Part shown: in pieces, positions 7,649 through 37,248 of the stretch
Position numbering within the stretch: position 1 is the stretch's first letter
How the letters are laid out: every line of letters begins with the position of its first letter
Source of the DNA: Pseudomonas tohonis
GTDB taxonomy: Bacteria; Pseudomonadota; Gammaproteobacteria; Pseudomonadales; Pseudomonadaceae
Assembly: GCF_012767755.2 (NCBI RefSeq)
Contig: NZ_AP023189.1
Location: 310,001 to 374,000, forward strand
Direction of reading: 5' to 3'
DNA length: 64,000 nt
Program-made: the position numbers and the translations under genes
Notes under the pieces: model-generated
What the model was told of the DNA's origin: nothing
The model's database searches: none
Seen by the model: the letters and a program-made list of their open reading frames with translations, nothing else

Positions 7649-7654
7649 GATGGA

Positions 7655-11113: not shown

Positions 11114-11215
11114 GTCGTCACTCCTTGCCGGCCCAGTGCGCCCATGCGCGGGCCGTTACCTGAGCCAATGCTCGGGCGGAGGGACGGGAGAGACGATCAG
11201 GGAATCCTGAAGACG

Positions 11216-11235
11216 CTGTAGTGCACGCACTACAG
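11216..11235. promoter_or_regulatory. Perfect inverted repeat upstream of tpsA
   Basis: CTGTAGTG-CACG-CACTACAG is an 8-bp perfect inverted repeat with a 4-base centre. It lies just after the regulator stop codon and about 100 bases before the tpsA start. It could be an operator for the NarL-type regulator encoded next door, which would be expected to bind dyad sites. It could also be a short transcription-pausing hairpin after the regulator gene; no T-run follows. Confidence 0.45.
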
Positions 11236-11242
11236 GGAAGGG

Positions 11243-20596: not shown

Positions 20597-22324
20597 TTAA
20601 ACGAAACGGCCTCCACAAAAGCCGGGGCGATTCACGTAGTCGTACATTCGGTAGTCGCTTTCTTCTTCGTCCATCACCACTATGACGCGTTCGAACTGCG
20701 CTCCCTTCACGCCGTGCTGCGTGGCATAGGGGGAGCCTTCTGAGACATAGCGTTCATAGGGCAAAAGCTCTTGCGCAGAGCAATTGAGGAACTTGGCCAT
20801 TGCCGCGTCCGAGGATAATCCTTCAGCCGGAACTGCATCAGCAGCCTCGGACTCCTGAACGGCGTCAGCAACATCTCTGAAAAACCCAAGAACACGCGCA
20901 TAGCGCTCATCGAACTTGAAAAGACCCGTGTCACAGAGATGGAGAGCTATGTCACCAATGGTGGTCCCTGCCTCATCCAGCATGGCCACAAGTCTCGATA
21001 CAGCAGCATGCAGCTCTCGCAATACATCCACGGCACGTTGGCGGGTCAGAGCCGCAGGCGCCAGGCGCGGGCTGAACTCCCGGAGCAGGTTTATAGCCGC
21101 GAACTCATTGCCGGCCTTCACAGCTGCAATGATCGGTAGCGCAAAACTTAGGAAGGGTCGAACGGGCCAGCCGGTGCCGTCCTGCATCCCCTGCTTCATG
21201 GCATCCGACGTCTTGTCGTTCAGCGCCGAGTAGATGCCGCCGAAGCCGAGCCGGTTTGCCGCCATGCGGTGCACGATGACAAGAATCTTGACTGCGATGT
21301 CTGGGGTTGTCCAACCATCGTCGTTGTTCGTCGCCGAGCTCCACGCCCGGACTCTTGCCAAGGCCTCGGTTCGGTTCAGCGTGTTCGGCAAGACGAACAT
21401 CCGGGCCGACCCCTCCACCAGCTTGAGGCCCCCATCGACCCTCTCGTGCAGCCCGCGGACTTGCTCCATACCGTCGCCCTGCGCGCGCACGGCATTGGCG
21501 ACGTCAAGGATCTGCTTGGCGCAGCGAAAGTTCTCCGGCTTCGTGATGGCCCTCCAATGGTCCTCAAGCTGGATGTCCCCTGCGCCTCTCATGAAGATCG
21601 ACTGCATCGGGTCGCCGAAAAAACCAAGGCAGAACTTGCCCTGCATCTGGGCTTCCACTTCCTTGAAAGACTTCACCACGCCCGGGAACGTGTCCTGACT
21701 CTCGTCGATAAACACGAACGGGTAGCTCAGCGCCACGACCCGTCGAAACAGCGGGCGGTTTTGTAGCAGGAAGTCGGCGAGCTGAAGGATGTCCTCGTGG
21801 CCGAGTATGCCCTTGGCGTAGTCACTGCCCATGCCGTAGTTGAACGTCCTGACGCCGGCCACAGCCTCTAGGCTTCGGGCATAGCGCTCTTGGTCGGCCT
21901 TGTTCCTGTCTCGCGTGGTCTGCCGGACACGCGAGCTGTAATTCTCAAACTCTTCTTTAAGATCGGAAATCCGCCTGCGGATGTCGTTCTGCAGCCAAAC
22001 CTTGATGTCGGCCTGAAACGTCTTGGCAATAGACCAGTAAAAGCTGTGGATGGTCGAGACATGAACCAGCGGGTCATCGTTGACGTCCGCCAGGATTTCA
22101 TTGGCGGCAAGGTCGGTATACGTGATGCACGCGACCTTCTGCTTCCTCGCCCGCATGCTGGCGCCGTGCTCCGACATCACCCAGTCCAGCGCCTTGATGA
22201 GGGAGGTGGTCTTGCCGGAACCTGCCCCAGCACGAACCACGAAGGGCTGCGGAGGCGTCGCGGCAATGCATGCGTGGATCTCGCGGTCGGCGTCGGTATC
22301 TGGGCTATCAATTCGTCTGCTCAT
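20597..22324 (-). pseudogene. UvrD-like helicase (GajB/class-2 OLD partner) truncated by the IS
   Basis: The first 563 codons encode an SF1 helicase paired with the OLD nuclease upstream (ATGA overlap). Motifs seen are Walker A VRAGAGSGKTTSL, motif Ia CITYTDLAANEI, Walker B FVFIDESQDTFPG, motif III FFGDPMQSIF and motif V ATQHGVKGAQFERV. The native frame ends at YDY. The last 11-12 residues (VNRPGFCGGRFV) are read from the IS3 right end before a stop inside the IS. Motif VI with its arginine finger (usually a YVxxSRA-type segment) should follow here and is missing, so ATP-coupled unwinding is probably lost. The 3' part is nowhere in the window. Confidence 0.88.
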
Positions 22325-24738
22325 GCCGTCTGTCCCGGGGCAACAATGACAGCGACAACATCGGCTGCAGTCGGCTCAATAGTCGCGACCTCGGTGGCGA
22401 TGGCGGCGTCCGCCTCAAGCTCGTGGGCCACTTTGGCTTCGAGCCAAGCCAAGGCCTCGGCGATGTACGCGGGAACCTTCCAGCCATTGAGCGGCCCGCT
22501 TGCGAGGACCTCCAGCGCAAAGCGGGTCTTGTCGAAGTTCTTGCTGACCACCCTATCGTGTAACTTCTCAGCCAGTTCTTCGGGGCTGCTCGGTGCGCGC
22601 CTGAGCTTGAGGCCGACCGCCCGGTTGGCCTCAGCCTGGCACCAGTCCGCGTTCTCAAGACCAAAGGCCTCCTCAAGGGTGCGGCCGCAGAGCTGCGATG
22701 TCTTCGCCCCCACCGTCACCGAAACCTTGGTCTGATAGGCCACCCGAACCTCAGCGTTTGAATCCTCAGCCAGCGACAGCGTCTTTTGCTCCGCCGTGAC
22801 TTCCCAGAGCTCTTTAATCGACCGCTTCTTCGGGATCCAGCTGATGAGGGTTTGGTTGGACGTGACGGCACCTTCCACGTGTGCATGGCAGGTGCTGCCA
22901 CGCTTCTTGGACTTTTTCTTGCCACCCGGTTCTGCCTCGTCGTCGTCCTCAAGCTCGAAGGGCTTCAGGTCGTCGTCCTCGTCATCTCCGTCAACGGCTC
23001 CCTCCGCGCCTGTGTCTTGTGCGGCGGCCTTCTCGGCGTCCGTCTTGACCTTCACGCTGTCCAAATCCGTGATGACCAGTGTTGTGAGCCCAATGAAGGC
23101 GATCAGCTCCTGAAACCGATGTGCGAACGCGCCACCGACTTCAAGGATGGTTAGGGCGGAAGAACGCAGGCGCTTGGCCGCCAACTCGATCATTGCAGGC
23201 AGGAGCAGACGCTCGACGTTGCCTTCCACCAGTATCACCGCATCGGAAAAAAAGAGATCGCAGTGCGTCAGCTTCAAATACCGCTGCAGGAATTCGCGCG
23301 CTGGAGCGTCTGACGCGCCCGTTTTGAATAGCGACAGATTGCGCACGTCCGTGTGATGGCCCAAGTGGTCGCTGACGCGGCGGAAGTACCGAATAGGCGA
23401 GAATCCGCGTTCATAGAGGATGTGCGGGGAATGCGTGGTGATGACGAGCTGCGTGTGGAAAAAAGTCGTGTGATCGTTAGCGTCCTCAAGGAGGCGCAAA
23501 ACGTTCCTGATGAAGACCTGCTGAATCTGCGCGTGCAGGTGCGCCTCAGGCTCCTCAATGAAGACCAAATGAAGTGGAGCTCGCCTGTCCTCCTCGGCTT
23601 TCCACTGCTCGTGCAGGTCGAGTAGCTCAACCACCATGTAGACCAGGTTCTTGAAACCCAGGCCGTTGTAGCTGTCTGGCAGTTGGGCGGAAGCCACGCC
23701 CGGGATCACGTAGTGAACCTTGGCGTCTTGCCCCGGGACAGTAGTCGGATCCAAGGCCGCCCGAATCACAATCTCGGGATTGTTGACGCCCGGATAGCCA
23801 AGCTTGGCCAGGCGTTTGAGGGTGTCACTGAAGACTTCCTTCAGATGGAAGTTCAGCTCATTCTCCGAGGTATCGAGCGCCTTGAGAGCCGCATGGTCGT
23901 CGCCACGCTTCTCTAGGTTGCGGTGATAAAACCTGCTCAGGCGCCGAGACAAGCTCTCGGCGCGATCAGAGCTACCGGCATCCGGGTCATCGAGGTGCCG
24001 CTGCGCGCGCAGGAAATCGACCCTCACCAACGACTTGAGAATGGCCGCACCGCCCGGGTCCTTGCCTAGGGGTAGCGGCTCGTAGTCGGCCTCCTTTGCC
24101 TGATAGCCGACAAAAGCCCGCTCATCGAGCACGTAGTAGCGGAAGGTGTATTCCTTGCTCAGCTCCTTGGTGAGGTACTTCGTCAGGCTTTCCGGCCAAG
24201 GCTTGTACTCGCCGGCTTCGGCCACCACCGCAGCCGCGTCTTCCGCGCCCGCCTCCACGGCTTGCTCCCCGGCGGCCTTGCGCTTGGCCGCAAGCGCGAC
24301 AGCTGCGTTGTTGGCCTTCTCATGTAGCTCATGGAACTTCCAGACGAGCTCGTGGGCATCCCGAGGCTCGAACGCCACCCGGATCCCGACGCACTTGCCG
24401 TCCCACTCAGTGCTCGGCAGCAGCGACATCGCAGTGGCAAGGTCGTCTTCACCGACGCGGAACCAGAGATCCAAGAGGATGGACGGTAACCTTTTGGGCG
24501 CATCCTCATCGCCAGGAGGAGTTCTGCCGACCGCGTCGATCTCAGCCCACAGCGCCGCACTGAAGTCAAAGAGCTCGAACTTCTTCACTTCGCCGCGGAG
24601 CATTGAGTACAGTCCTTGGACAGCGGACGTCTTCCCGCTGTTGTTGGCGCCGACAAAGATAGAAATTTCTTCATCGAGCTCGATGACAACATCGCGCAGC
24701 CGGCGGTAGTTCTGCAGCCGATATGCCTGTAACTTCAT
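22321..24738 (-). CDS. OLD-family ATP-dependent endonuclease (ATPase-Toprim; Gabija GajA-like)
   Basis: An 805-residue nuclease of the OLD family. The ABC-type ATPase has Walker A VGANNSGKTS near residue 30-40, a split head with signature-side motifs, Walker B LVFIEEPEAHLHAQIQ and H-loop ITTHSPHIL. The C-terminal Toprim domain has the metal-binding glutamate in VILVEGNVERL and the DxD in LVITDLDSVK. A very acidic-then-basic low-complexity insertion (residues about 570-620, DGDDEDDD ... KKKSKKRG) follows the DxD, and the protein is longer than GajA (about 580). Start ATG at 24738 has AGAGG upstream; the GTG six bases earlier is less likely. Pairing with a UvrD helicase marks class-2 OLD or Gabija-like anti-phage systems. 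With its helicase truncated, the pair may be inactive. Confidence 0.88.
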   Translation of the reverse strand: MKLQAYRLQNYRRLRDVVIELDEEISIFVGANNSGKTSAVQGLYSMLRGEVKKFELFDFSAALWAEIDAVGRTPPGDEDAPKRLPSILLDLWFRVGEDDLATAMSLLPSTEWDGKCVGIRVAFEPRDAHELVWKFHELHEKANNAAVALAAKRKAAGEQAVEAGAEDAAAVVAEAGEYKPWPESLTKYLTKELSKEYTFRYYVLDERAFVGYQAKEADYEPLPLGKDPGGAAILKSLVRVDFLRAQRHLDDPDAGSSDRAESLSRRLSRFYHRNLEKRGDDHAALKALDTSENELNFHLKEVFSDTLKRLAKLGYPGVNNPEIVIRAALDPTTVPGQDAKVHYVIPGVASAQLPDSYNGLGFKNLVYMVVELLDLHEQWKAEEDRRAPLHLVFIEEPEAHLHAQIQQVFIRNVLRLLEDANDHTTFFHTQLVITTHSPHILYERGFSPIRYFRRVSDHLGHHTDVRNLSLFKTGASDAPAREFLQRYLKLTHCDLFFSDAVILVEGNVERLLLPAMIELAAKRLRSSALTILEVGGAFAHRFQELIAFIGLTTLVITDLDSVKVKTDAEKAAAQDTGAEGAVDGDDEDDDLKPFELEDDDEAEPGGKKKSKKRGSTCHAHVEGAVTSNQTLISWIPKKRSIKELWEVTAEQKTLSLAEDSNAEVRVAYQTKVSVTVGAKTSQLCGRTLEEAFGLENADWCQAEANRAVGLKLRRAPSSPEELAEKLHDRVVSKNFDKTRFALEVLASGPLNGWKVPAYIAEALAWLEAKVAHELEADAAIATEVATIEPTAADVVAVIVAPGQTA

Positions 24739-25075
24739 GAGCACCTCTTCCTAAGTGTTGCCGGGGCAGTTTGGTACTGAGCACGCCGGCCGGCAGCTTT
24801 CCTTTTAGCGCTCGCGCTTTTTCCCGGCTGCTGAACCTAACAGCATCCATGTATGGATGCCGAACGTCCTGCGTTTGCTAACCGGGTCTTTGGTCTGGCA
24901 AGTCATTGCGTCATGACCGCGCGCCGCAGCTGGATCGCTGGCAGTAGTCGTCCCACATCAGGCCAGGTCCGTGGCATGCCGTCAATTTGACATTTCAGTG
25001 CCGCAGAGGCATATGAGATGGCGTTGTGCGGTCTAGCTAGGCCTTTACCTGGCTACGCCGCGGAGGGTATGAACA
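24739..25075. promoter_or_regulatory. Divergent promoter region with an inverted repeat (OLD pair / Wadjet-like operon)
   Basis: These 337 bases separate the divergently read OLD gene and the four-gene Wadjet-like operon and must carry both promoters. CATCCAT (24844-24850) and ATGGATG (24853-24859) make a perfect 7-bp dyad with a 2-base centre, a candidate operator. A strong ribosome site (GGAGGG, 25062-25067) stands eight bases before the operon's first ATG. No regulator gene adjoins, so any factor binding the dyad is unknown. Confidence 0.5.
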
Positions 25076-26539
25076 ATGGATTTGTTCGAGGACGACTTAC
25101 CGTCTGAGGCACTGGGCGCCACCTTAAGCCCGCTGGTCTCACCGCTCGAAACACCGCCCGACCTACCGGTGGAGGTTCGACTTGTCGCGGCCGTCTCGCG
25201 CCTGCTCGACTTCCACCAGGCACGAAGCTCTGGCAGCAATGTCTCGGTTCCCGAAGTGCCTGAGACGGCGGCGCACAACCTTCATCTCGCCATCTCCTTG
25301 ATCACTGCGCTTGGGCAGTGGGAACTGGATCAAGGTCAGGCTCTGGTCTCGCTCAAGCAGCTACGACAGCTCGCGAGCGAGGATGTGCAGTCGGTCGATG
25401 AGGCAACCCTGGAACACTGCGTATTGTCGCTCTCGCATCCGCGCGAAATCCGCTTCGGAGTCAAGACTACAGAGGGAATTGGCGTCGCGAGTACGAGCGA
25501 TACCACACCGCTCCTCATTTTCGACAGCAGCCTACGACAAGTGGGCCTGACCGATAACGCTCGAATGTTCATTCGTGTCGCCGAGCTCAAGGACAGCTGG
25601 CTCTACAGCGACCTTGATGCCCAGCGTCTGCTGGCCGCACTTGAGAGGCGTCAGTTTGCGGATATCCCCCGCTTCTGCCGGGAGATGCTTCGAGACCTTG
25701 CGACTAAGGCTCGGCAAATCGCTGATGTTTCCGAACGCCCTGCGTACACCGACCTGCGAGATGGGCTAATTCGAGAAGGTGCCACCATTAGCAGCGCTCT
25801 TCGGGAAGCTACGGGCCTTGTAGATAAGGCAATGCGGTACCTGTTCTCACCGCCCGTAGTAGATGCTTTTGAGCTGTGGAAGGCCTCTAACGGCATCTCT
25901 TACGAGTTGAGCAACCTTCAGGCGGAAATGGAAAGGGTTCTCCAGGCGACGGAGAGCCTTTCACGGAGGTTCGTGCACTTTTTGACTGAAGCGCAGCAGG
26001 CGCAAACAGTCCGTAGCCCATCAATTGGCTTCCTGGAGCTCGTCAACTCCCTACATTCGCGAACAGATGGGTTCCTTGAGCAACTCGAGGCTGCAACTGC
26101 CGACTTTGTCCCTTGGGCCCCCGATCTCGCCTTCTTCAGCCCTGACCTCGTCGCCGGCGAAGTCAGCCTATCGAAGCTCTATGTCCAGAGCCTCCCTGCT
26201 CCGCCCAAGCTGTCGTTCCGCCAGACCGACCAGGTAGATGACCACGCTGAGCAAGTGCACGAGTTTTTGCTGCGCAATGCCAAGCTGATAGTCAGTTCGC
26301 TGAAGTCAGGCCCCAAACCGCTTGAGGAGCTGCTGCGGCTTGAAGGGCTGGTCTACGAGGGGGCGGAAGGTCTTGCCGATTTCACGGGGGCCTATTCCTA
26401 CCCCGAAGTCTTCGATGTGGGCGAGCAAAGTATTCGTGTCTTGCATCAGGACGAGCTGATCGAAGTATTTTCGGACAGCTCTGTTCTGGTCACCAGCAAT
26501 CCGATTTTGTCTCTGGAGGTGCCTGATGTCCCCAGCTGA
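25076..26539 (+). CDS. Wadjet/MksF-like kleisin subunit (JetA-like)
   Basis: A 487-residue protein, first gene of a tightly overlapping four-gene operon. Its place and size match JetA/MksF, the kleisin that bridges the heads of the SMC partner. It is mostly alpha-helical: an N-terminal helical/winged-helix region (VRLVAAVSRLLDFHQA, ALVSLKQLRQLASEDVQ), a long central helical stretch (about 200-340, LQAEMERVLQATESLSRRFV) and a C-terminal winged-helix-like tail (LLRLEGLVYEGAEGLADF). No enzymatic motif is seen. I assign it from operon position, predicted architecture and partners, not a direct family match, because its sequence is well diverged from the JetA (DUF3375) proteins I know. It overlaps the next gene by 14 bases. 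Confidence 0.68.
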   Translation: MDLFEDDLPSEALGATLSPLVSPLETPPDLPVEVRLVAAVSRLLDFHQARSSGSNVSVPEVPETAAHNLHLAISLITALGQWELDQGQALVSLKQLRQLASEDVQSVDEATLEHCVLSLSHPREIRFGVKTTEGIGVASTSDTTPLLIFDSSLRQVGLTDNARMFIRVAELKDSWLYSDLDAQRLLAALERRQFADIPRFCREMLRDLATKARQIADVSERPAYTDLRDGLIREGATISSALREATGLVDKAMRYLFSPPVVDAFELWKASNGISYELSNLQAEMERVLQATESLSRRFVHFLTEAQQAQTVRSPSIGFLELVNSLHSRTDGFLEQLEAATADFVPWAPDLAFFSPDLVAGEVSLSKLYVQSLPAPPKLSFRQTDQVDDHAEQVHEFLLRNAKLIVSSLKSGPKPLEELLRLEGLVYEGAEGLADFTGAYSYPEVFDVGEQSIRVLHQDELIEVFSDSSVLVTSNPILSLEVPDVPS

Positions 26540-27374
26540 GCAAGGCTTCGTGTTCTCAATACTACTCAAGCATCGGGAACTCTCCACTCGGCCCATAGGG
26601 CGCTCGGCATATCCAGATGAGATACGTGCTGCTCGGATCTTGTTCGATTGCAGGCAGTCGGTGCTTGATGACTTCGACGAGTTTCTCTCCGGTCAGGGGT
26701 TGGGATTGCGTGTCCTGGACGGCATCGCAGACCTGGGTGTTCCTGACCAGAGCGGGCGCCCGATCGTTTACTACATCCTCTGTCGCCGATTTGGAGAGGA
26801 GTCGCCGTCCTACGTTGACGCCAAAGCGTTCTTTTCTGATTTCCGTGATCGTCGTCGAGAACGGAATGCTGATGATGAGGCGGTGGAGCTGAACAAAAGC
26901 TCTTCGGTCTTTTGGATCGCGAGGCTTTGGCTGACCCTTCAGTACTTCTTCTACGATCGGATCGATCGACCCGTCGGTAATCTCTACAACTGGCGCAATG
27001 CTCTGGTGAAAGAGGCCGACTTCATTATTCAGCTCAAGACCGATGTCGAGACGATGGGGAATACCGGCCGTCCAGAAGGCGAAGCGGGCTTGCTCTGGGA
27101 TGACTACTGGCAGAAGCGAGCGAGCATCCCTCAGATTGCGCGACGGTTCTTCAAGCTCATGAAGCAATACCGAATGATCGAACAGACCGACCAGGACGGT
27201 ATTTGGCGTCAGTCACTAGTGGCAGCCGTGGACATGTCCGGTATTGCTGATCGGTCCTTGCGCTATCTGATGCCAGCGGCAGATCAAGCATTTCTGACTC
27301 GAGCTCAATCGCTGATTAATGGCTACGAGGAGCTTTCCGTAGGAGAAGACGATGCCCCTGATTCACGCGTTTGA
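26526..27374 (+). CDS. Wadjet/MksE-like KITE subunit (JetB-like)
   Basis: A 282-residue protein beginning with GGAGGTG five bases before its ATG. It is in the slot and size range of JetB/MksE (KITE, tandem winged-helix) subunits, which dimerise and load on the kleisin. The aromatic helix RLWLTLQYFFYDRIDRP and the later RRFFKLMKQYRMIEQTDQDG fit winged-helix repeats. It is longer than typical JetB proteins (about 200), with an acidic C-terminal tail (SVGEDDAPDS). The end overlaps the SMC gene by 23 bases, so the two are translationally coupled. The assignment is mainly contextual. Confidence 0.65.
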   Translation: MSPAEQGFVFSILLKHRELSTRPIGRSAYPDEIRAARILFDCRQSVLDDFDEFLSGQGLGLRVLDGIADLGVPDQSGRPIVYYILCRRFGEESPSYVDAKAFFSDFRDRRRERNADDEAVELNKSSSVFWIARLWLTLQYFFYDRIDRPVGNLYNWRNALVKEADFIIQLKTDVETMGNTGRPEGEAGLLWDDYWQKRASIPQIARRFFKLMKQYRMIEQTDQDGIWRQSLVAAVDMSGIADRSLRYLMPAADQAFLTRAQSLINGYEELSVGEDDAPDSRV

Positions 27375-30300
27375 GGTCTCAAACTTCCTGAACCATCGAC
27401 GCAAAGCTCCCTGGAGGCCAGACTGGCCCTGCAATCGCTTCTTGCTGGGTGGCTACCATGCCGCGCTCAACATCCCTAACGGACGTGGCAAGAGCACGAT
27501 GGTGTTGATGATACTGGCGATGCTGGCCGGCAAGACCAAGAAGCTCAATGAGCTGATGCGAAAGCATGCCGCACCAGAATCTTACGGTGCGTTCACGCAC
27601 CTACGTATCGAGATCACGCACCGCAACCCGGGCCACGAGGACCTGCTGCAGGAACTCATTGGCCCCAGTGACGGCGAAAGAATGGTCTTCGGTATGTATG
27701 GCAATGCTAGGGACGGCAGGACTTTCGATTTCTATGCATACCGGGGAACGTTTGATGACTGCCCCCTGGGTATAGAAAGTGGCCGAATTACCGACATAGT
27801 GACTCGCGAAGAGTTTTTGGAGTGTTTGAGGAAGCGCCCAGGCCTGTTTCCCTCCAACCAGAAAGAGCGACAAGACGAGGAGTGGCGGCGTTTCATCTCT
27901 GAGCACTTTGACGCTGCATCGATTCTGCAGCAGTACGCCTACCAGGCCGCGAACGCTGCGGAAGGCTCAAGCACCTACTTCGAGGTGGAGTCGAAGACGG
28001 GCAACTACAGCGCTCAGCTGTTCTACAAGCACCTCGCTCCCGAGCTGCTCGCAGATGTGATGGGTAGCTACGGCGAGGAGGATGAGCGTGGAATCGAAGA
28101 CACGATCCATGAAAAGGCTAGCAGCGTGGTCCGGGCACGCAAGCGAACCAAAGAGACCGCGCGCGAACTAGATGAGGCCGAACGAGTTCTTGAGCGCCTT
28201 AGAGATCTTGACGAAGAGGTGCAGAAAATTGAGGCCGCACAAGCGGATTTGCACGCCACGCGGCGGCCCTTGATCGAAGAGCTTTGCGTTCTTGAAGACG
28301 CCGTGCTCAAGAATCCGATCCCAGGCTCTCCCCGTCCTCCTGCGGTAGAGGATCCAGATCTGTTCCACTACATGCTTCTGCAGCGCGAGGAATGGTGGAT
28401 CACCGACCAGGGGCTCGCATCCTTGCTGAATGAGCCGGTAAGGGCTCTTAATCAGCGAGTGGTACGGGTCTTGAGTGCACGACCGGATACGAAAGCGCAG
28501 AAATCACAAGCTATTGATTTGTCTTGTAACCTTCCTCGTTTTATCCCTGCTCGTGGCGGCCATCCTGCGAAGCTTTACAACCTGCCTGATGCGATCACGC
28601 TTTGCTTCGACGCGATGAGTGATGAAGCAGCGTCTGATCGCGAGGCAGTGATCACACAGTTGAATGCAGCCTTCGCTTGGGCAAGGGATCACGCGGACAC
28701 CAACCCAGCCCGTCGTGAAATCCGGAACAGCAATTTGCAGCGAGCGGCTATCGCTGTGCAGAACCGTACCCTGGAGGAAGAAGCCGGGGCGCTCCAAGGA
28801 CGATCTACGGAGCTAAGTCATGAGGAGTCGGGGCTCAGAAGCGGCGGTGTAGCGTGGGAGATGCTTCAGAAAAGCGGCTACTTCAGTGAACAGGAGCTGG
28901 CCAACCCCGCAGGTACGGAAGCGGCAGTAACAGAAGAGTTATTGCGCGCGAACCGGGACTTCGATCATCACAACAGGGTCACGTCAGAGCATCAGTCAAC
29001 CTTCTTGAAGTGGCAAGAATTCCAGGCTGAGCACGGTGAGGATGTTTCACCCGGTATTCTGGTAGCCGACTTGGAGCGCGAGGAGGTCGAGGCTAGGCAA
29101 CAATTAGAGGAGGCAGACGGTAAGCAAGAGGCCCAAGCAAGCCTTGTCGCTAGGCTGGTCCAGCAGCACAAGCGAGCCAAATCCGATTTCGAGCGGCTTC
29201 GAGAGAGTCACTCCACGGTGACCCACTACCTCCCCGACACTCGAGTTTTCCATGAAATTTTCGCAGGCGAGTCTGCGAAGGGGCTGGAGCAGCAAGTCCA
29301 CAGAGAGCTCGATGAGGCAAAGTCTAAGCGGGACCACTATTCTGATGAGTTGAGGTCACTCGCCGGAGCTATCAAAGCGCTGGAAACGTTCAGCCAAACG
29401 TATCCAAATAGCGACCCTGCTCAATGGCTTCACGCTCGAGCAGCCGAGAGAAAACAGCTAGGCGAGCGAGAAACGTCCATTCGTCTCGCATTGGGTCGCA
29501 GGAAGGAATTGCTGGCGCGTGCAGAAACGCATTGGCAGGCTGGGACATCGTTTGGTCTGCGCTTCGAGGGAGCTACGACCGAGGGTTTGGAAGCGCAGGT
29601 ACAGCGTGAGCTCGAACACGCTCAAATTTCGCTCCGCCAGAATGAGCAAACCTTGGCAGCCCTCCAGCCCGACCTGGCGGCGATCGAGCAATTTCAGCAG
29701 CACTTCCCCAGCGCGCACCCTGGTGAGTGGCTTGCGTATCGATCTCAAAAGAAGACTCACGCCGACGAAGTGATATCCGCAAACGGGCTGCGTTTGGACT
29801 CTATGCTCGCTCAGCGGCACGTCGTTGCCGAGCATCGCGATGGGGCAGAGGCCTACGACTCCTACTTCCTGAATGAAGATCCATACGGTCTGATAGGCAG
29901 GATTGGAGCAGAGCTCGCATCCGCGAAGCTTCGGCGAGAAGACGCCCTAGGTGCTTTGACTCACATCCAAGCAGAGCTTGATGCAGTGGAGGTGTTTAGG
30001 TCTGAGGTGGTTGGCCTGGAGCCGGGGCTCTGGCTTGAACAATGGCGTGCATCTCGCTCAGCTGCAGAGCAGGCGCTGGCTGAGATGCGCGACGAGTATG
30101 AGCGCGTTGGTGAGCGGCGCCGTATCCTCGACAAGGATCCGGTGGTACCGAGCTCGACCGCACGTGCTGCTATGGATGTTGCGGGAACTACTGCTCAGCC
30201 ACTTTACGCCTTTATTGATTCGCTTGAGCTCGGCGAAGCGCGCAAGGAAACGGTTCTATCACTGTTCTCTGCTTTGATTTTTGCCCCGGTGCTTCACAGT

Positions 30301-33123
30301 GTCGAGGCTGCAGCCGAAGTCGCAGGGCGCCTGGCTCAGGCAGAAATCGATGTCCCCGTACTTGTGGCAGGCCCGCTTGGTGAGTTCTGCCGAAGCGGCT
30401 CGATTTCTTATCAAGATGGTGTGGCCGTCACTTGGCTCGTCGGTGTCAAAACCTGGCCGGTGGCTTGTTTGCTGGACCCTGGTCTTCTGCAGCAAGAGCG
30501 TGCTCGACTTGATGTTTTGCTCAGTGAGCTGCGGGCCCAGATTGACGAGCTTCAGGCGCGCATTGATCGATTCGTTGCAGAGGAGCTTTTCGCTCAAACT
30601 GCAGAGCAGGCGCGAGATGCGATTTTGCGTCGAATTCCTGAGCGCGGTGCGGAGCTTAAAGCCTTCATCCAAGGGCTGGATGAGGATCTTCCCAGGCTCG
30701 AAAGGCGTGCCTCAGTGGAAGCTAAACAGGCCATTGAGTCTCGGCTGATTACCACTGAAACGCTCGGTCTTACGTCCAATGCTGGCTGGGATTCCATTCT
30801 GCATTCTGTGGCCGAGTTGGCTCGTCTTGTCGAGGGGCTTCAAGCAGGTATTGATGAGGCCCAGGCCGTACTCGTCGAACTTGAGCGGGACGCTGATCAG
30901 GAAGTCAATGCTGCAGTCGCTGCGAAGGCCATAGACGAAGGTAAGGCCCGTCAGGCTGAACAGCTACGTGGTTCCATATCCCGACTCCACTCTGAATTGC
31001 CTGCACTGGAAGATAGGGCGTCGAAAGATGCCCGGCTTTCCATTCGTGCCATGGCAAGCCTTCAAGATTTGCTCCAACTCTCTCCTGACGCCTCCTGGGT
31101 AGTCGTTCTGGAAGCGCGTACCCGGGTCGACGAGGATATAGCTGTCCAGGACGCGAAGCTGCAGGACGTTCTCCAATCCATCGAGCGATGGGATCAGACT
31201 TCGCTGATTGAGCCCGTCGCGCGTGAAGCAGCAGCAGCTATCGAGAATAGGGTCCCTGAGCAGCATACGACGTTGCTCGCGCTCGCCCAGGAGCTTGACC
31301 AAGTCATGCCCCGGCTGGAGACGCGAGCATCGTTCGATGCCATTACTTCCATTCGGGCGATGTGTGCCGTTGAAGAGGCATTGCAGGGTAGGTCGCCTGA
31401 TGAGCTGAGCCTGACGATCCAGGAAGCCAGTACCAAATTCGATGTCCTTACTGTTGATCTCTCTGACCACGAGTCAGTGTTCGAGACGCTGGTGCAATTT
31501 AGGAAACGAAGTCAGGAACGGCTTGTTAAGGCCCTTGAGCAGGCCCGTCAGATTGATGGCTTGAGTCGTCTACAAAGCTTTGCGGATCACCCTGAGCATG
31601 GCCCGGACTTCATGGCGAAGGCTGACGAAGTAAGGGGCCAGCTTGAGCGTGCTCGTGAGTACGCTCAGCGCAGAGCTGCATTTGATTTCGAGGGTGTGGC
31701 GCAGTTTGTGGCGAGTGGTGGGAACGTCAGGCTGGCAGCCATTCAGGCAGAGCTTGGGCTCGCAGGAGATCGCCTTCAGGCGATTGCAGCACTTCTGAAA
31801 GAGAACCAGACGAAGGATGAGCAACTGCGTGCTGAACAGGAGACCCTTCGAAGGGCGGAGCGGCTCATCGACGAGTCGATCATACAAGTGCGGCGTGGCT
31901 ACTTGGAGCGCAAGAAAGTAATACCTGAACCGGTCTCAATAAGCCCCGAGCAGTTACGTAACCATGAGCTCTATCGGGCGCTCCACCCGGCGGGTGACTC
32001 CTCTCATATGGGCCTTGCCCGAAGCATGGATCAGGCCTGTGAGTTGTTGTCGTCCGGAGAGGCTGAGCAGTTGCGGCAACGCTACAGCGAGGCTGGAAAA
32101 GGCCTTCAGCTTCACATGGAGAGTTTCATCAAGCTTACCGATAAGATATTGGGCGACTCTCACCTCAAGTTGCCTGAGGTGGCACGTACCCAGCTACGGC
32201 AAGCGCGCGAGAACCCGCCACTGGTCACTGTGATGCTGCAGGCCAGCCAGGTGTCATTCGATGAGAACATGAAGGTCAACAGGATTGCTGATGAGCACCT
32301 GGCTGAGGAGCGTGCCGGACTCAGTAGCTGGCTGACAAATTTCACGCTACGACTGCCTGACAACCTCAAAACACTGCGTACCATTCTCGCGCCTAAAGTT
32401 GATCAGACGTCCAAGGCTGTAACTCGAGCTGGGTTCCACGTTGATGCCAAGGTCATCGATTCAGAGGGTGTCCAGGCGCTGATCGAGTCGATTATCCAGG
32501 ACGTTGAGAATTACGAGGATAACGAGCTGGCCAAAGAGTCTTCTGTGCGCGATCACCTAAGACAAAGTCTGCGCGACGACATCCGCAGAAACTTCTATCA
32601 GAAAGTGATTGTGAATCCCCGCATCTACCTCGTTCTGCCAGCTATGAGCGAGGCCCCCCTCGAGATGGAACGCGACATGGCGAGCTCTGGCCAGGGGATT
32701 GCCATTACCTTCCTCTGGATCCTACGGCTTTCAGAGTTCATAACGGAGAGGGAGATCCGCCGGCAAACCGTTGGGCGAGCGCAGCGTCAGCGGCTGCGCG
32801 ATCGGTCCACAGGCTTCACTATCCTAGATGGTGCATTTTCCCACCTGTCCTCGAAAAGCTTGATTGATGAAACCTTGAAGGGCATTGAGGATACTACGGG
32901 GCGATTCCAGCTGATTGTCACTGTCCATGATCCCGCCTATCAGAACGATTTCAATCGATTCCCCGCTCTGGTAGTGGCCAGAGAGATGCAAGGGCATTAC
33001 ATGCGTGCTTGGTCTCACCTGAATGAAGTTGGCGAGAGAGATGTTTTAGGGCAAGAGACCCTCGCCACTTTTCAGGCCATCCGGGTGGCTCGTACAGCTA
33101 AAGCAGCGGAGGAAGGTCGGTGA
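27352..33123 (+). CDS. Giant SMC-family ATPase (JetC/MksB-like) with repeat-expanded arms
   Basis: A 1923-residue SMC-like protein, far larger than usual JetC/MksB (about 900-1300). The N-terminal head has Walker A NIPNGRGKST (G44-T49). The C-terminal head has signature SSGQG (1778-1782) and a Walker B-like TILDGAFSHLS (D1826), where G1827 replaces the usual catalytic Glu. Between them are a first arm (about 250-930), a globular hinge (about 935-1043, VAGPLGEFCRSGSISYQDGV) and a second arm (1044-1700). The first arm has three gapless 101-residue repeats starting G644, G745 and G846, with WL at repeat positions 49-50. The second arm has three repeats 103 apart, marked by LPRLERRAS-type motifs (P1114, P1217, P1320). 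Residues about 324-420 look like a RhuM-type helix-turn-helix module. It should extrude or compact DNA and, with the Toprim partner, destroy plasmids; this follows from Wadjet systems. Confidence 0.85.
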   Translation: MPLIHAFEVSNFLNHRRKAPWRPDWPCNRFLLGGYHAALNIPNGRGKSTMVLMILAMLAGKTKKLNELMRKHAAPESYGAFTHLRIEITHRNPGHEDLLQELIGPSDGERMVFGMYGNARDGRTFDFYAYRGTFDDCPLGIESGRITDIVTREEFLECLRKRPGLFPSNQKERQDEEWRRFISEHFDAASILQQYAYQAANAAEGSSTYFEVESKTGNYSAQLFYKHLAPELLADVMGSYGEEDERGIEDTIHEKASSVVRARKRTKETARELDEAERVLERLRDLDEEVQKIEAAQADLHATRRPLIEELCVLEDAVLKNPIPGSPRPPAVEDPDLFHYMLLQREEWWITDQGLASLLNEPVRALNQRVVRVLSARPDTKAQKSQAIDLSCNLPRFIPARGGHPAKLYNLPDAITLCFDAMSDEAASDREAVITQLNAAFAWARDHADTNPARREIRNSNLQRAAIAVQNRTLEEEAGALQGRSTELSHEESGLRSGGVAWEMLQKSGYFSEQELANPAGTEAAVTEELLRANRDFDHHNRVTSEHQSTFLKWQEFQAEHGEDVSPGILVADLEREEVEARQQLEEADGKQEAQASLVARLVQQHKRAKSDFERLRESHSTVTHYLPDTRVFHEIFAGESAKGLEQQVHRELDEAKSKRDHYSDELRSLAGAIKALETFSQTYPNSDPAQWLHARAAERKQLGERETSIRLALGRRKELLARAETHWQAGTSFGLRFEGATTEGLEAQVQRELEHAQISLRQNEQTLAALQPDLAAIEQFQQHFPSAHPGEWLAYRSQKKTHADEVISANGLRLDSMLAQRHVVAEHRDGAEAYDSYFLNEDPYGLIGRIGAELASAKLRREDALGALTHIQAELDAVEVFRSEVVGLEPGLWLEQWRASRSAAEQALAEMRDEYERVGERRRILDKDPVVPSSTARAAMDVAGTTAQPLYAFIDSLELGEARKETVLSLFSALIFAPVLHSVEAAAEVAGRLAQAEIDVPVLVAGPLGEFCRSGSISYQDGVAVTWLVGVKTWPVACLLDPGLLQQERARLDVLLSELRAQIDELQARIDRFVAEELFAQTAEQARDAILRRIPERGAELKAFIQGLDEDLPRLERRASVEAKQAIESRLITTETLGLTSNAGWDSILHSVAELARLVEGLQAGIDEAQAVLVELERDADQEVNAAVAAKAIDEGKARQAEQLRGSISRLHSELPALEDRASKDARLSIRAMASLQDLLQLSPDASWVVVLEARTRVDEDIAVQDAKLQDVLQSIERWDQTSLIEPVAREAAAAIENRVPEQHTTLLALAQELDQVMPRLETRASFDAITSIRAMCAVEEALQGRSPDELSLTIQEASTKFDVLTVDLSDHESVFETLVQFRKRSQERLVKALEQARQIDGLSRLQSFADHPEHGPDFMAKADEVRGQLERAREYAQRRAAFDFEGVAQFVASGGNVRLAAIQAELGLAGDRLQAIAALLKENQTKDEQLRAEQETLRRAERLIDESIIQVRRGYLERKKVIPEPVSISPEQLRNHELYRALHPAGDSSHMGLARSMDQACELLSSGEAEQLRQRYSEAGKGLQLHMESFIKLTDKILGDSHLKLPEVARTQLRQARENPPLVTVMLQASQVSFDENMKVNRIADEHLAEERAGLSSWLTNFTLRLPDNLKTLRTILAPKVDQTSKAVTRAGFHVDAKVIDSEGVQALIESIIQDVENYEDNELAKESSVRDHLRQSLRDDIRRNFYQKVIVNPRIYLVLPAMSEAPLEMERDMASSGQGIAITFLWILRLSEFITEREIRRQTVGRAQRQRLRDRSTGFTILDGAFSHLSSKSLIDETLKGIEDTTGRFQLIVTVHDPAYQNDFNRFPALVVAREMQGHYMRAWSHLNEVGERDVLGQETLATFQAIRVARTAKAAEEGR
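29281..30153 (+). repeat. Three 101-codon repeats in the first arm of the SMC protein
   Basis: Protein-level repeats begin at residues 644, 745 and 846. In their first 50 residues they align without gaps: GLEQQVHREL, GLEAQVQREL and GLIGRIGAEL; then L at shared positions, an E/AxF near 35-37 and WL at 49-50. The third is cut short by the hinge. The DNA has diverged, so the duplications are old. Confidence 0.85.
30622..31548 (+). repeat. Three 103-codon repeats in the second arm of the SMC protein
   Basis: Repeat cores LPRLERRAS, LPALEDRAS and MPRLETRAS have their prolines at residues 1114, 1217 and 1320, exactly 103 apart. Upstream helices and the downstream SIRAM / AIESR segments also line up. 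The repeats mirror the three in the first arm across the hinge. Repeat boundaries are approximate. Confidence 0.8.
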
Positions 33124-34220
33124 GTATTGACGACCGGATACCAGAGCTGCAGGCAGCGATTTGGAAGCGCCTCGGGAAAGGAGCGTACTTGAGACCAGCC
33201 GGCCTGCTGGAAAAACTGGGGAAGGATCTGGGCCTTCACCATAGCGATGTCCGGCGTGGATTTATCAGGCTCAAGGAGCAGGGCTGGCTGGATAACGTGG
33301 CCGCCAATGGTGAGCCTATTGGTCAAGTCAGAGTCCTGGCTAGCAGGCCATCGGCTATCGAGTCAGACTCATTGTTAGTTTGGCGTTCGGCATTGCAGCG
33401 CAGCGCGCTGGATAGGGACTCGCAAGTACTGCTTGAGTCCCTGCACCTCGCAACAGACGGATTGTCTCCTGAGATGCTCGATCGGCTCGCAGCGGGTCTT
33501 GGCCGACTGCGAAAGGAGCTTAGCCAGCCTACGGATGAGTCAGCCTTCGTTATCAGTACCAAGTACCTGCTTGGATCGTCGAAAGTTGTTGGCAAGCTCC
33601 CGGTTGCTCCGATGCGCCAGTTCTGTCCAGCGTTATTCGCTCAGCCTGACCGTATCCCTTATGTGGTGACTGCCGGGCCGGCACTGCCCGAGCGGGTTGT
33701 GCTCATTGAAAACCCTTGGGCGTTTGAACGTGCCATTGAAGCTGGGTTGGCTGAGCGCTGTGCACTGATTGCGACATTTGGATACGGGCTTTCCAGGAGC
33801 GGTGAGGCGTATGGAAAACAGCTGCAGAGCCTCTTGAGCGGTAGTTGGGCGGACCTGATCCAACTGCGGAGAAATCCAGAAGTAGCTGAACTCTGCAGCT
33901 TGCTCACGCATCCGGTCATCGAATTCTGGGGGGATTTCGACCTGGAGGCGTTCCGGATCTATCGGAGTCTCCTTAAACGCTTGCCTCAGCTGGTGCTCAG
34001 CCCCCTTTACACAGCGCTGCGAGACCACCTGCTGAATGGAGAAGGACATGAGTACCATGCGATTACCGCAAAGGAAGGTCAGGCGCCCCTAGGGGGTGAC
34101 GAGTTTGCGGATATGCCAGAGCTTCGAAAGCTCGCTGAGTTGTGCGCGGTCCGAGGCCTTGATCAGGAGTTTCTCTCGCTGCCAGAAATCGCTGTCCTAG
34201 GCACTTGTGAGAGGAGCTAA
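33120..34220 (+). CDS. Wadjet-like Toprim nuclease (JetD/MksG-like)
   Basis: A 366-residue protein whose GTG start overlaps the SMC stop by four bases. The N-terminal 70 residues are winged-helix-like (GLLEKLGKDLGLHHSDVRRG), as in JetD. The C-terminal half is a Toprim fold: the glutamate E197 in VVLIENPWAFERA and the acidic pair D272 and D274 in EFWGDFDLEAFRIYR, followed by a helix, matching the metal sites of the JetD/Spo11-like nuclease. It should cut DNA loops trapped by the SMC partner. Closing the operon in A-B-C-D order strengthens the Wadjet assignment. It is the most recognisable of the four besides the SMC. Confidence 0.78.
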   Translation: MSIDDRIPELQAAIWKRLGKGAYLRPAGLLEKLGKDLGLHHSDVRRGFIRLKEQGWLDNVAANGEPIGQVRVLASRPSAIESDSLLVWRSALQRSALDRDSQVLLESLHLATDGLSPEMLDRLAAGLGRLRKELSQPTDESAFVISTKYLLGSSKVVGKLPVAPMRQFCPALFAQPDRIPYVVTAGPALPERVVLIENPWAFERAIEAGLAERCALIATFGYGLSRSGEAYGKQLQSLLSGSWADLIQLRRNPEVAELCSLLTHPVIEFWGDFDLEAFRIYRSLLKRLPQLVLSPLYTALRDHLLNGEGHEYHAITAKEGQAPLGGDEFADMPELRKLAELCAVRGLDQEFLSLPEIAVLGTCERS

Positions 34221-34869: not shown

Positions 34870-35823
34870 TTGCCGAATGTATTTTTCTCATACTGTCACG
34901 CTGACGAAGCGCTGCGAGATCAGCTTGAGAAGCAGCTCGCCATGCTAAAACGGCAAGGAGTCATCGAGACCTGGCATGATCGAAGGATCCATGCTGGCCA
35001 GGAAATCGATACTGCCATTGATGAGCATATCAACAGCGATGAGATCATCTTGTTGTTGGTCAGCCCGGACTTCATCGCTTCGGACTATTGCTACAACATC
35101 GAGATGAATCGGGCTATGGAGCGCCATCATGCGGGGGAAGCGATCGTCATCCCGGTAATCCTGCGCGCATGCGATTGGCACTACGCGCCATTCGGCAAAC
35201 TGCTTGGCACTCCTCAGGATGGAAAGCCGGTAACGCAGTGGCCTGACAGGGATGAGGCGTTCCTGCAGGTGGCGAAAGAGGTCCGTAAAGCGGCTGAAAA
35301 GTTGCGCAGCACTCATGCGAAAGCTAGCCCGCAAGCTGCTCGAGTCGAACTAATTACCCCTCAACAGGCAGTACCTAGCGGACCGCGATCAAGCAACCTT
35401 CGCCTGGCCAAGACGTTCACTCAGCTGGACAAAGACCGATTCCAGATTGATACCTTCGAATACATCGCCCGCTATTTCGAAAACTCTCTGCAGGAGCTCC
35501 AGGCACGAAACCCAGGCTTCGAGGGCGTGTTTCGTCGTGTCGACGCCAATAGGTTCTCCGCGACCATCTACAAAGATGGCCAAGACGTTGCGAGAGCAAC
35601 AGTCTTCGTTGGGGGGCAGATGGGGGCGGGGATCTACTACAGCCAAGGCGCTTCGTTCAGTGGCAACTCGTACAACGAAATGCTTACGGTGCAAGCGGAT
35701 GACCAGTCTCTCTATCTCACCAGCTTGGGGATGACCTTCCGTAGGGGGCAGGACCAGAAGCTGTCCCAGGAAGGCGCCGCTGAACTGCTGTGGGAAACCG
35801 TCATCGCCCCTCTTCAGCGTTGA
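34870..35823 (+). CDS. TIR-domain protein (probable NAD+-cleaving defence effector)
   Basis: A 317-residue protein. Residues 1-140 are a TIR domain: the start VFFSYCHADEALRDQLEKQL, the DRRIHAGQEID box, IILLLVSPDFIASDYC and the likely catalytic glutamate E78 in CYNIEMNRAM, then VIPVILRACDW. A low-complexity linker leads to a C-terminal domain (about 180-317; TFEYIARYFENSLQEL, GIYYSQGASFSGNSYNEML), which is not recognised and may sense a ligand or oligomerise. The start is TTG with GGAG eight bases upstream. TIR enzymes often kill the infected cell by consuming NAD+. No Thoeris ThsA/ThsB or CBASS partner is adjacent, so it may act alone. Assignment of the TIR fold is secure; the trigger is unknown. 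Confidence 0.88.
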   Translation: MPNVFFSYCHADEALRDQLEKQLAMLKRQGVIETWHDRRIHAGQEIDTAIDEHINSDEIILLLVSPDFIASDYCYNIEMNRAMERHHAGEAIVIPVILRACDWHYAPFGKLLGTPQDGKPVTQWPDRDEAFLQVAKEVRKAAEKLRSTHAKASPQAARVELITPQQAVPSGPRSSNLRLAKTFTQLDKDRFQIDTFEYIARYFENSLQELQARNPGFEGVFRRVDANRFSATIYKDGQDVARATVFVGGQMGAGIYYSQGASFSGNSYNEMLTVQADDQSLYLTSLGMTFRRGQDQKLSQEGAAELLWETVIAPLQR

Positions 35824-36293
35824 GCTGACGACTGCCAGTGGGGGCTGAAGAGAAATCCTTGAGCCAGAAATGACAAAGGCGGCCTCAGAGGACGCCTCAA
35901 ACCATGTTTCGTCACCGGTATCTATAGCCGGGAGAGGAAGCTCATGGGCAGAGGCTCAGGATACCACTTGCGGAGCTTCTGCTGCTGGTTCATGACGACC
36001 GAAAGGAGTTGGCTGGTGTCGCTGAGCCGGCGCTTCCGGCTGCGGTTTAAGGCTGTTTCTGAAGCATTCTTGGGTCATAGAGGAAGTCCTCTTCCTCTAT
36101 GACCTTGATGCCAGGCCAGGCGGGATAGCGTGAGTTGATCACTAGTTTCTTCTGAGCAGGCAGCATGGCAGAGGTCTCATCAGGCGCCAAGTGAGTGCCC
36201 GACTGCAGCCAGGCTGAGCCAAAGTCCACGCTCGGAGTGTCTGCCGGCTTTGTCCCGTCACAGAGAGAGCTCGAAGGTTGGCGTGGTTACTAT
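35824..36293. other. Gene-poor spacer with a possible gene remnant
   Basis: About 470 bases between the TIR and AbiEi-like genes. A minus-strand open frame at 36047-36229 (60 codons, GTG start, no ribosome site) reads AWPGIKVIEEEDFLYDPRM and looks protein-like, perhaps the end of a decayed gene, but no start signal supports it. A 13-bp perfect hairpin lies within it (listed separately). Near 35875-35905 an imperfect GGCGGCC/GGACGCC hairpin follows the TIR gene and could end its transcript. Confidence 0.4.
36074..36103. repeat. 13-bp perfect inverted repeat
   Basis: GTCATAGAGGAAG (36074-36086) pairs perfectly with CTTCCTCTATGAC (36091-36103) around a 4-base TCCT loop. This is the longest perfect hairpin noticed in the island. 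It could be a terminator stem, a recombination or transposon site, or an RNA structure. No T-run follows on either strand. Confidence 0.7.
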
Positions 36294-36330
36294 TTGACCA
36301 ATGTCAGAAAGTGGAATAGATTTCTGACAT
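36294..36330 (+). promoter_or_regulatory. Promoter with a 10-10-10 operator for the AbiEi-like gene
   Basis: ATGTCAGAAA (36301-36310) and TTTCTGACAT (36321-36330) are perfect inverted halves separated by ten bases. A -35 element TTGACC (36294-36299) and a -10 element TAGATT (36317-36322) are 17 bases apart, so the dyad overlaps the core promoter. The gene starts 27 bases downstream. AbiEi antitoxins repress their own promoters through inverted repeats, and this arrangement fits that exactly. Confidence 0.72.
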
Positions 36331-36356
36331 CGAAAGAACACACCGGCTCGAAAGCG

Positions 36357-36950
36357 ATGAAAACTCTTCCTCAAACCATCTTGGAGCAAAGCAGGCAGCT
36401 GCCCGAGGGGGGGATGCTGGCCGCAAAGGATTTTCTTCATCTCGGAAGTCGGGCTGCAGTGGACCAGGCATTTTCCAGACTGGCCAAAGCTGGGCTGCTT
36501 CTTCGCGTGGTGCGTGGACTGTATGTGGCGCCAGTTACGAGCAGGTTTGGGACAAGGGCTCCGGCGCTAGAGAAGGTCGTCCAGGCTCTGGCTCAAAAGA
36601 CCCAAGACGTAATCACAGACAGTGGCGCGCGAGCAGCTAACGGCCTTGGGCTGACCACCCAGGTACCTGTTATGTCTGTGTTCTTCACCCGCGGGCGAGG
36701 GCGCACGCTCACGTTGGGCAAGTCGAAGGTCGAGATCAGGCGCGTTCCTAAGTGGATGCTCTCGCTCGGTGCGACGCGCCCTGGGGCGGTAATTCGGGCG
36801 CTCGCTTGGTTAGGTGAGGCGCATATAAGTCATGCGATGGAAAAGCTGCGCAAGCTGCTATCCCCGGCGGATTGGCAGGAGCTGCGCTCTGTCCGGCATT
36901 TACTTCCGTTCTGGATGGCTATGGCGATCAGTCGTGATGTGGTCTGGTAG
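36357..36950 (+). CDS. AbiEi/DUF6088-family antitoxin-like regulator
   Basis: A 197-residue protein of the type IV antitoxin AbiEi/DUF6088 group. It has an N-terminal winged helix (GGMLAAKDFLHLGSRAAVDQ, LLRVVRGLYVAP) and a C-terminal region with ITDSGARAANGLGLTTQVPV and IRALAWLGEAHISHAMEKL. The start at 36357 is placed just after the operator; the longer frame from 36195 would include the promoter and is rejected. The ribosome site is weak. AbiEi normally neutralises the nucleotidyltransferase toxin AbiEii, but no such gene follows, so this is a solitary member, common for DUF6088. It probably represses its own promoter. Confidence 0.82.
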   Translation: MKTLPQTILEQSRQLPEGGMLAAKDFLHLGSRAAVDQAFSRLAKAGLLLRVVRGLYVAPVTSRFGTRAPALEKVVQALAQKTQDVITDSGARAANGLGLTTQVPVMSVFFTRGRGRTLTLGKSKVEIRRVPKWMLSLGATRPGAVIRALAWLGEAHISHAMEKLRKLLSPADWQELRSVRHLLPFWMAMAISRDVVW

Positions 36951-37020
36951 CTGGCCCGGTCTACGCTTAGCTAGGAGTCAGGACATGAGTTGTGGCTCTA
37001 TGCCTTCTGGGGAGGTGACT

Positions 37021-37248
37021 ATGACAATGCCCAACGAGCGCTCTCGGGCAGTGGTGAATACGCGGGAATTCCTTGTCGCGCTTTCTCGAGATGGCACCCT
37101 GCCGGAGAAGGTGCGCCACGACGCTAAATTCCTCTTGCGGCATTATCCAACATTGGACGACGTCATCCTGGCCGGGAAAATTGAGGAGCAGGCTGAGACG
37201 TTGCCCATCGGGGTAATGGGGCCTGTCTTCAGCTCGTCGCTGAAGTGA
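37021..37248 (+). CDS. BPSL0761-family small protein
   Basis: A 75-residue protein matching the BPSL0761 family pattern (MTMPNERSRAVVNTREFLVA, LPEKVRHDAKFLLRHYP). The start at 37021 has GGGGAGGTG just upstream; the longer frame back to 36832 overlaps the antitoxin-like gene and is not used. The family occurs in accessory regions of proteobacteria and its function is unknown. The helical, charged first half and 70-base distance from the AbiEi-like gene might suggest a unit, but its partner status is unproven. Confidence 0.75.
   Translation: MTMPNERSRAVVNTREFLVALSRDGTLPEKVRHDAKFLLRHYPTLDDVILAGKIEEQAETLPIGVMGPVFSSSLK

Follow-up and report, generated by a model that had tools for sequence, protein, structure and literature searches.

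A Wadjet-like operon with a giant SMC subunit and paired arm repeats in Pseudomonas tohonis, a candidate fourth type

The presence of a structural maintenance of chromosomes (SMC) gene encoding 1923 residues in Pseudomonas tohonis raises the question of what kind of machine such a protein belongs to and how it came to be so large. The gene is found in a stretch of 64,000 nucleotides (contig NZ_AP023189.1, positions 310,001 to 374,000, forward strand), which is referred to here as the window. A preliminary description, made from the sequence alone, had placed it third in a four-gene A-B-C-D layout like that of the Wadjet plasmid-defence systems, and all four open reading frames (ORFs) are indeed present on the forward strand and overlap head to tail: A (25076-26539, 487 aa), a kleisin of the JetA/MukF kind; B (26526-27374, 282 aa), a KITE, tandem winged-helix protein of the JetB/MukE kind; C (27352-33123, 1923 aa), the giant JetC-like SMC ATPase; and D (33120-34220, 366 aa), a JetD-like Toprim nuclease whose gene overlaps that of C by 4 bases. 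This kleisin-KITE-SMC-nuclease order is the one found in Wadjet (JetABCD). We consider it likely that these four genes specify an SMC-nuclease complex that is Wadjet-like (JetABCD-type) and belongs to an undescribed subtype, the function of which would be to cut circular DNA. We base this reading on the folds predicted for A and B, the match of the C head to a JetC profile, and the JetD match and Toprim motif of D; on the retention of the operon in nine loci, purifying selection, a defence-island setting and a patchy occurrence; and on the repeat scores, unit counts per length class and narrow arm lengths of C.

To begin with the operon itself, a scan of species genomes provided 11 related loci (L003-L013), and the A-B-C-D order is kept in nine of them (L003-L006, L008-L012). 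L007 carries A-B-C as far as the end of its contig, and L013, also at a contig end, carries the end of C together with D. When the window was compared with L003, the rate of nonsynonymous change (dN) was 0.06-0.20 and that of synonymous change (dS) 1.2-2.1, giving a dN/dS of ~0.05-0.16 across all four genes, and identity was 0.46-0.57 at codon position 3 and 0.80-0.96 at positions 1 and 2. A, B, C and D are all under purifying selection.

The first two subunits had been described as kleisin-like and KITE-like while being too diverged to name by family, and both parts of that statement held up. Neither A nor B has a match in PADLOC or NCBIfam, or one above cut-off in Pfam, and profiles of A and B aligned against 13 ORFs each (taken as JetA or JetB by operon position) reached hhalign probabilities of 0.5 and 0.1. 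The AlphaFold2 model of A (mean predicted local distance difference test, pLDDT, 71.6; predicted template modelling score, pTM, 0.35) had as its best Foldseek match chain E of the Neobacillus vireti Wadjet-II JetABC (9qe0_E, E 8.5e-6, probability 1.00), with MukBEF and MukE-MukF chains ranked next. For B, the best solved-structure matches were chains F (E 4.8e-4) and E (1.4e-3) of P. aeruginosa PA14 JetABC, a Wadjet-I complex, followed by chain C of E. coli JetABC and then MukE-MukF chains. Judging from lengths and entry titles, the matched chains would be JetA/MukF for A and JetB/MukE for B, and structure prediction points to the JetA kleisin fold in A and, with the chain identity taken from length and title, to the JetB KITE fold in B. 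In type I Wadjet, an IFDR motif at the N-terminus of JetB contacts JetD (PMC10586767); no such motif was seen in the N-terminal part of B or in the aligned B rows.

Since A and B also resemble MukF and MukE chains, the complex could instead be a condensin of the MksBEF kind that organises the chromosome or another element, with the nuclease having some other role. Foldseek ranks those chains below the Wadjet chains, though, and D both overlaps C and follows it in the nine loci that have all four genes. In addition, the patchy distribution and defence-type neighbours described below fit an accessory defence system, and we regard a condensin as an unlikely identity for this complex.

The nuclease is linked to Wadjet by direct model match: D is recognised by the PADLOC JetD1 model PDLC00527 (E 1.8e-8) and has a Pfam JetD_C match below cut-off; its N-terminal part, where Wadjet nucleases have a CAP domain, appears winged-helix-like by eye. 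The three Toprim residues highlighted in the preliminary description, E197 (33708-33710), D272 (33933-33935) and D274 (33939-33941), make up the E...DxD motif of JetD and are intact in 14/14 aligned D family members. Among 12 rows taken as canonical JetD they are matched in 11, 12 and 12, respectively, the exception (L045) being a wrongly chosen ORF. D also matches JetD3 models weakly (best E 0.0077), and the operon might then be an ordinary type III Wadjet that the PADLOC models miss, particularly as our direct comparison was made without any type III JetC. We find this quite improbable given that D matches JetD1 better and that PADLOC recognises none of A, B and C, with 0 families at E ≤ 1 in PADLOC 2.0.0 (2023), models of types I-III included. 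The same three proteins gave no NCBIfam 2026 match at E ≤ 1 and only below-cut-off matches in Pfam. Both of these libraries contain Muk models, and no MukBEF/MksBEFG family model recognised A-C above cut-off. No type model, then, assigns A-C to a standard Wadjet type, and those C homologues that have a name at source are called hypothetical or uncharacterized. A literature search by title and abstract, with most subscription papers outside its scope, found no further Wadjet type described and no work on length or duplication in SMC arms of this kind.

For C, the comparison set consisted of 15 JetC found through JetD (8 typed JetC1 and 7 untyped) and one JetC2 (L086). It is limited to these because the JetC2 model run against the genomes gave mostly weak coiled-coil matches plus one full-length JetC2, and the JetD3 model search, in which ten regions were inspected, gave no recognisable type III JetC. 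The N-terminal head of C matches the profile of the 16 JetC (hhalign probability 97.0, E 1.3e-10), while its C-terminal head alone produced chance matches only. Matches of a whole-C profile to eukaryotic SMC chains ran mainly via the coiled coil and were not counted. The size of C had been judged to be well beyond that usual for JetC, and this agrees with the PADLOC JetC models appearing in our scans, which are 1093-1215 (JetC1) and 1361-1365 (JetC2) positions long.

What the preliminary description had not pointed out is how C became so large: both strands of its arm have undergone tandem duplication, in matched pairs. Self-comparison of the protein gave strong diagonals at offset 101 (residues 637-809) and offset 103 (residues 1051-1242) and weaker signals at 202 and 206, together with repeat scores of 160 on the N side and 160 on the C side against a maximum of 54 in 20 heptad-phase-preserving shuffles. 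Together with the unit profile, these offsets delimit three units of ~101 residues on one strand (N-arm unit 1, aa 637-737, 29260-29562; unit 2, aa 738-838, 29563-29865; unit 3, aa 839-930, 29866-30141) and three of ~103 residues on the other (C-arm unit 1, aa 1051-1153, 30502-30810; unit 2, aa 1154-1256, 30811-31119; unit 3, aa 1257-1359, 31120-31428). N-arm unit 3 and C-arm unit 1 adjoin the conserved hinge region seen in the alignment (aa 931-1050, 30142-30501), which is 82% identical to that of L003 compared with 59-63% in the arms. With the N-side units running up to the hinge and the C-side units leading away from it, both sets of three cover the same stretch of the antiparallel arm. The alignment also contains a conserved insert of ~135 residues at the junction of the head and distal arm (aa 320-455, 28309-28716), which is kept in the clade and less so in L089; neither this insert nor the hinge had a confident PDB match by sequence.

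Coiled coils are weakly self-similar, and the aligned repeat copies within C are only ~24-33% identical, which could make the repeats a by-product of coiled-coil composition. This explanation is very hard to sustain when shuffles that preserve heptad phase reach no more than 54 against 160, when just two of the 16 other JetC score higher than the maximum of their own null (51 vs 48 and 43 vs 42, margins of 3 points and 1 point), and when the number of units rises with protein length on both strands, as set out next.

At least 74 homologues of C were recovered (7990 candidates scored), and with the window protein and the 11 locus proteins they form a set of 86 rows, some of them near-identical. 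They fall mainly into three length classes of ~1515, ~1720 and ~1923 aa. The unit profiles, in which the first N unit is a degenerate copy near residue 518, gave an N/C count of 2/1 in 60/61 members of ~1500-1560 aa, 3/2 in 7/9 members of 1716-1734 aa (P0019 has 2/2 and L044 has 2/1) and 4/3 in 13/13 members of 1915-1923 aa; L089, L090 and the truncated P0070 gave 2/1, 3/1 and 2/1. It is important to note that these counts are not independent of the C family, as the profiles were iterated on that family itself. Self-comparison of four short-class members found a repeat above null in none. Arm lengths, measured between conserved residues and leaving out P0070, are narrow: 313.2 (standard deviation, sd, 0.6, n=61), 413.0 (sd 0, n=8) and 515.0 (sd 0, n=13) residues on the N side in the three classes, and 546.3 (sd 1.8, range 541-551), 649.4 (sd 0.7) and 749.0 (sd 0) on the C side. 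Taking medians, one class differs from the next by 100 and then 102 residues on the N side, and by 102.5 and then 99.5 residues on the C side.

The short-class homologues listed share 32-36% identity with C, and two relatives found later at ~25-27% identity, L102 and L103, have N/C arms of 316/552 and 317/549 residues. A more distant member, L044, has arms of +102/+112 and different repeats, with offsets of 52 and 54 and 43% identity, which in each of the two strands are set ~80-200 residues away from the hinge. Exceptions to the ~100-residue step are L089 and L090, with arms of +55/+68; L090 (4018-8952, SMC of 1644 aa) also departs from the paired pattern, with a repeat on the C-arm side only (offset 69, scoring 75 where the null reaches 59), and L089 has no arm repeat above null. 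In a tree made from the heads only, the two longer classes are joined (100/99) and the longest class is one clade (100/100), with low support (48/6) for the middle class as a clade; a separate analysis gave two changes. The root was placed on L044, L089, L090, L102 and L103, and several long branches leave the details of this tree unsure. Given that short-class lengths occur on both sides of the root, the short form of C would most simply be ancestral, with lengthening having taken place at least twice.

Coiled coils rise ~0.15 nm per residue, from which we estimate the arm of C (~590 residues, C side) at ~88 nm. The common SMC arm is ~50 nm (PMC5526789; PMC13370939). As reported by Burmann et al. 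in 2017 (PMC5344682), the arm lengths of prokaryotic SMC proteins have modes at 238, 341 and 515 residues, and possibly at 163 and 423, and the permitted lengths follow steps of ~100 aa that were termed puzzling; an engineered Smc was functional in certain length regimes only. The steps in the C family are similar in size to these. Those of Burmann et al. (PMC5344682) are statistical, across SMC proteins and engineered Smc, whereas the C family has countable paired duplications within one type of complex. Steps this regular suggest a need for the length of the arms to remain in register, as was proposed from the engineered Smc (PMC5344682), and the mechanical constraint behind their steps may well act on the C family too.

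The second point beyond the preliminary description is the ATPase. C has the Walker A, signature and Walker B aspartate expected of an SMC protein, and Walker A (LNIPNGRGKSTM, 27466-27501; N43, G44, G46, K47), the ABC signature (RDMASSGQGIAIT, 32671-32709; S1778, G1780) and the H-loop (FQLIVTVHDPAYQNDFN, 32905-32955; H1859) have these residues invariant across 85 rows. In Walker B (TGFTILDGAFSHLSSKSLIDE, 32809-32871), D1826 is followed by G1827 where the compared JetC have glutamate, and the family reads D-G-[AL]-F-S-x-L-S. Glycine replaces the catalytic glutamate in 85/85 covering rows and in L102 and L103 (87/87), and with relatives of ~25% identity included, the loss of glutamate is therefore old and fixed. 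The glutamate is present in 15/15 JetC found through JetD (8 typed JetC1) and in the JetC2 of L086. By eye, no histidine was seen at the place matching the H-loop in the 15 JetC found through JetD. A search for an alternative catalytic acid found E249, D352, D449 and D1826 as the only invariant acids in the 85 C rows. This departure of the ATPase motif from that of the compared JetC calls for caution in treating the operon as a new Wadjet subtype.

Taken as a Wadjet-like complex, the operon would work as follows. Two giant C subunits would be closed by the kleisin A with the KITE subunits B, and the assembled A-B-C complex would most likely load onto invading DNA circles and draw them in by loop extrusion; once there is no more DNA to reel, the Toprim nuclease D would be recruited and cut the circle, thereby restricting plasmids. 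The size of C is accounted for by growth of its arms through two duplications of the coiled-coil segment beside the hinge, both strands gaining ~100 residues each time. Walker A and the signature are kept for nucleotide binding and, with the usual Walker B glutamate absent, C may use another residue for hydrolysis or may hydrolyse slowly and act mainly as an ATP-gated clamp. Taken further, C might not be a motor at all, but bind ATP, close as a clamp and barely hydrolyse, with the arms forming a passive, geometry-sensing ring and D cutting the trapped DNA. The glycine in all 87 covering rows, set against the glutamate at that position in all 16 other JetC, speaks for such a clamp. The invariance of Walker A, signature and H-loop is unlike a decaying ATPase, however, and arms of such narrowly defined length fit the transmission of force, a process linked to nucleotide hydrolysis by Burmann et al. 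(PMC5344682), so we hold the pure clamp to be possible but the less probable account. For the Wadjet-like reading, a bolder version is that this is a fourth Wadjet type in which arm length is selected in quanta of ~100 residues per strand and evolves by paired duplication, in two or more lineages that each have a repeat unit of their own, and in which the heads do without the Walker B glutamate and therefore have a power stroke or clamp unlike that of the compared JetC; we would give this version an even chance.

The surroundings of the operon agree with a role in defence. It sits in a low-GC defence island: G+C is 0.53-0.60 in 9/10 4-kb blocks of window positions 1-40000 (0.675 in 8001-12000) and 0.66-0.71 beyond. 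PADLOC identified a Gabija system upstream on the reverse strand (gajA 22321-24744, gajB 20597-22324) and a full-length ThsB-type TIR gene downstream on the forward strand (34870-35823, PDLC00420, E 3.4e-163), both of them neighbours and not part of the system; ThsA was not among the families shown for the scanned neighbouring ORFs. An AbiEi-like gene follows (36195-36950, PDLC02226, E 2.1e-57), overlapped by a 138-aa ORF (36832-37248); neither this ORF nor one of 601 aa at the edge of the low-GC stretch (37287-39092) had a PADLOC or Pfam match at E ≤ 1e-4. Elsewhere, the window contains a two-partner secretion (TPS) pair at 5885-11113, made up of a ShlB-type transporter and a TPS-domain exoprotein with MBG domains. 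Neighbours were also scanned at eight related loci, with a choice that favoured large ORFs, and 9/20 of those chosen, in 6/8 loci, had a PADLOC match at E ≤ 1e-8, to Gabija, SIR2 and HerA, IetS, mad8, dCTPase and JAB/E1-E2 types; no match at that threshold was found among the chosen neighbours in L005 and L009.

The C family is rare and patchy. Counting the window's own genome every time, it occurs in 2/57 relatives, 2/18 genomes of the genus, 4/369 of the class (one weak) and 3/398 of the phylum in two scans that returned the same three genomes. A scan of viral contigs found no relative of C, and in the plasmid collection two records from P. aeruginosa gave a match to 10% of C. On P. aeruginosa plasmid pPUV-6 (L001, 11710-13798), a C-terminal fragment of a C relative is followed by a JetD gene identical to that of L044 over the stretch compared, and this copy looks decayed. 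The window's own genome also carries a complete-looking type I Wadjet (G000:C1, ~6554700-6561400; L043, 6715-13418) with proteins of 502/254/1101/396 aa, its JetC1 matching PDLC00511 (E 0) and its nuclease JetD_C (E 4.9e-43), and with A and B assigned by position only. With both in one genome, the giant-SMC operon and the type I system are probably not redundant.

These results offer natural proteins with which to address the 2017 puzzle of ~100-residue steps in SMC arms (PMC5344682), and to examine the idea of tuned arms, as members of the C family are set apart by one or two complete arm units on both strands and yet keep head and hinge motifs and partner genes. If the fourth-type reading is true, the 1515/1720/1923-aa series would be a ruler for relating arm length to step size and to the plasmid size cut-off. 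An SMC clade in which the Walker B glutamate has been uniformly lost bears on which steps of the cycle need a catalytic base, and the operon is a further likely defence system, one overlooked by the annotation libraries used here.

Compared with known systems, the operon shares features with several and matches none completely. The kleisin and KITE folds of A and B are shared with MukBEF/MksBEFG, and MksBEFG also has a nuclease, MksG (PMC10123090). A-C differ from these in having no above-cut-off Pfam or NCBIfam match. We know of no arm repeats or DG Walker B in MukBEF/MksBEFG. With Wadjet type II, the operon shares a large SMC and the fold of A, which is closest to N. vireti 9qe0 chain E, by length JetA; the type II JetC of L086 (1392 aa), unlike C, has a DEAF Walker B and no arm repeat above null, and A-C of the operon lack a type model match. 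With Wadjet type I (E. coli GF4-3 and P. aeruginosa PA14), it shares the four-gene order, a B closest in fold to chains that are JetB by length, and a D closest to JetD1. It differs from type I in that C is ~1.6-1.75 times longer than the JetC compared and has glycine for the Walker B glutamate with the H-loop histidine present, and in that B has no visible N-terminal IFDR. The preliminary description had left a choice between a new Wadjet subtype and a related machine, and its proposal gains support from the A/B folds, the JetD match and the lack of a type model for A-C. With kleisin and KITE folds in A and B and no type model for A-C, a new Wadjet subtype is the best reading, and because the models miss A-C and the Walker B glutamate is absent, we file the operon under no existing type, but treat it as Wadjet-like, lying outside the modelled types I-III, and as a candidate for a fourth type.

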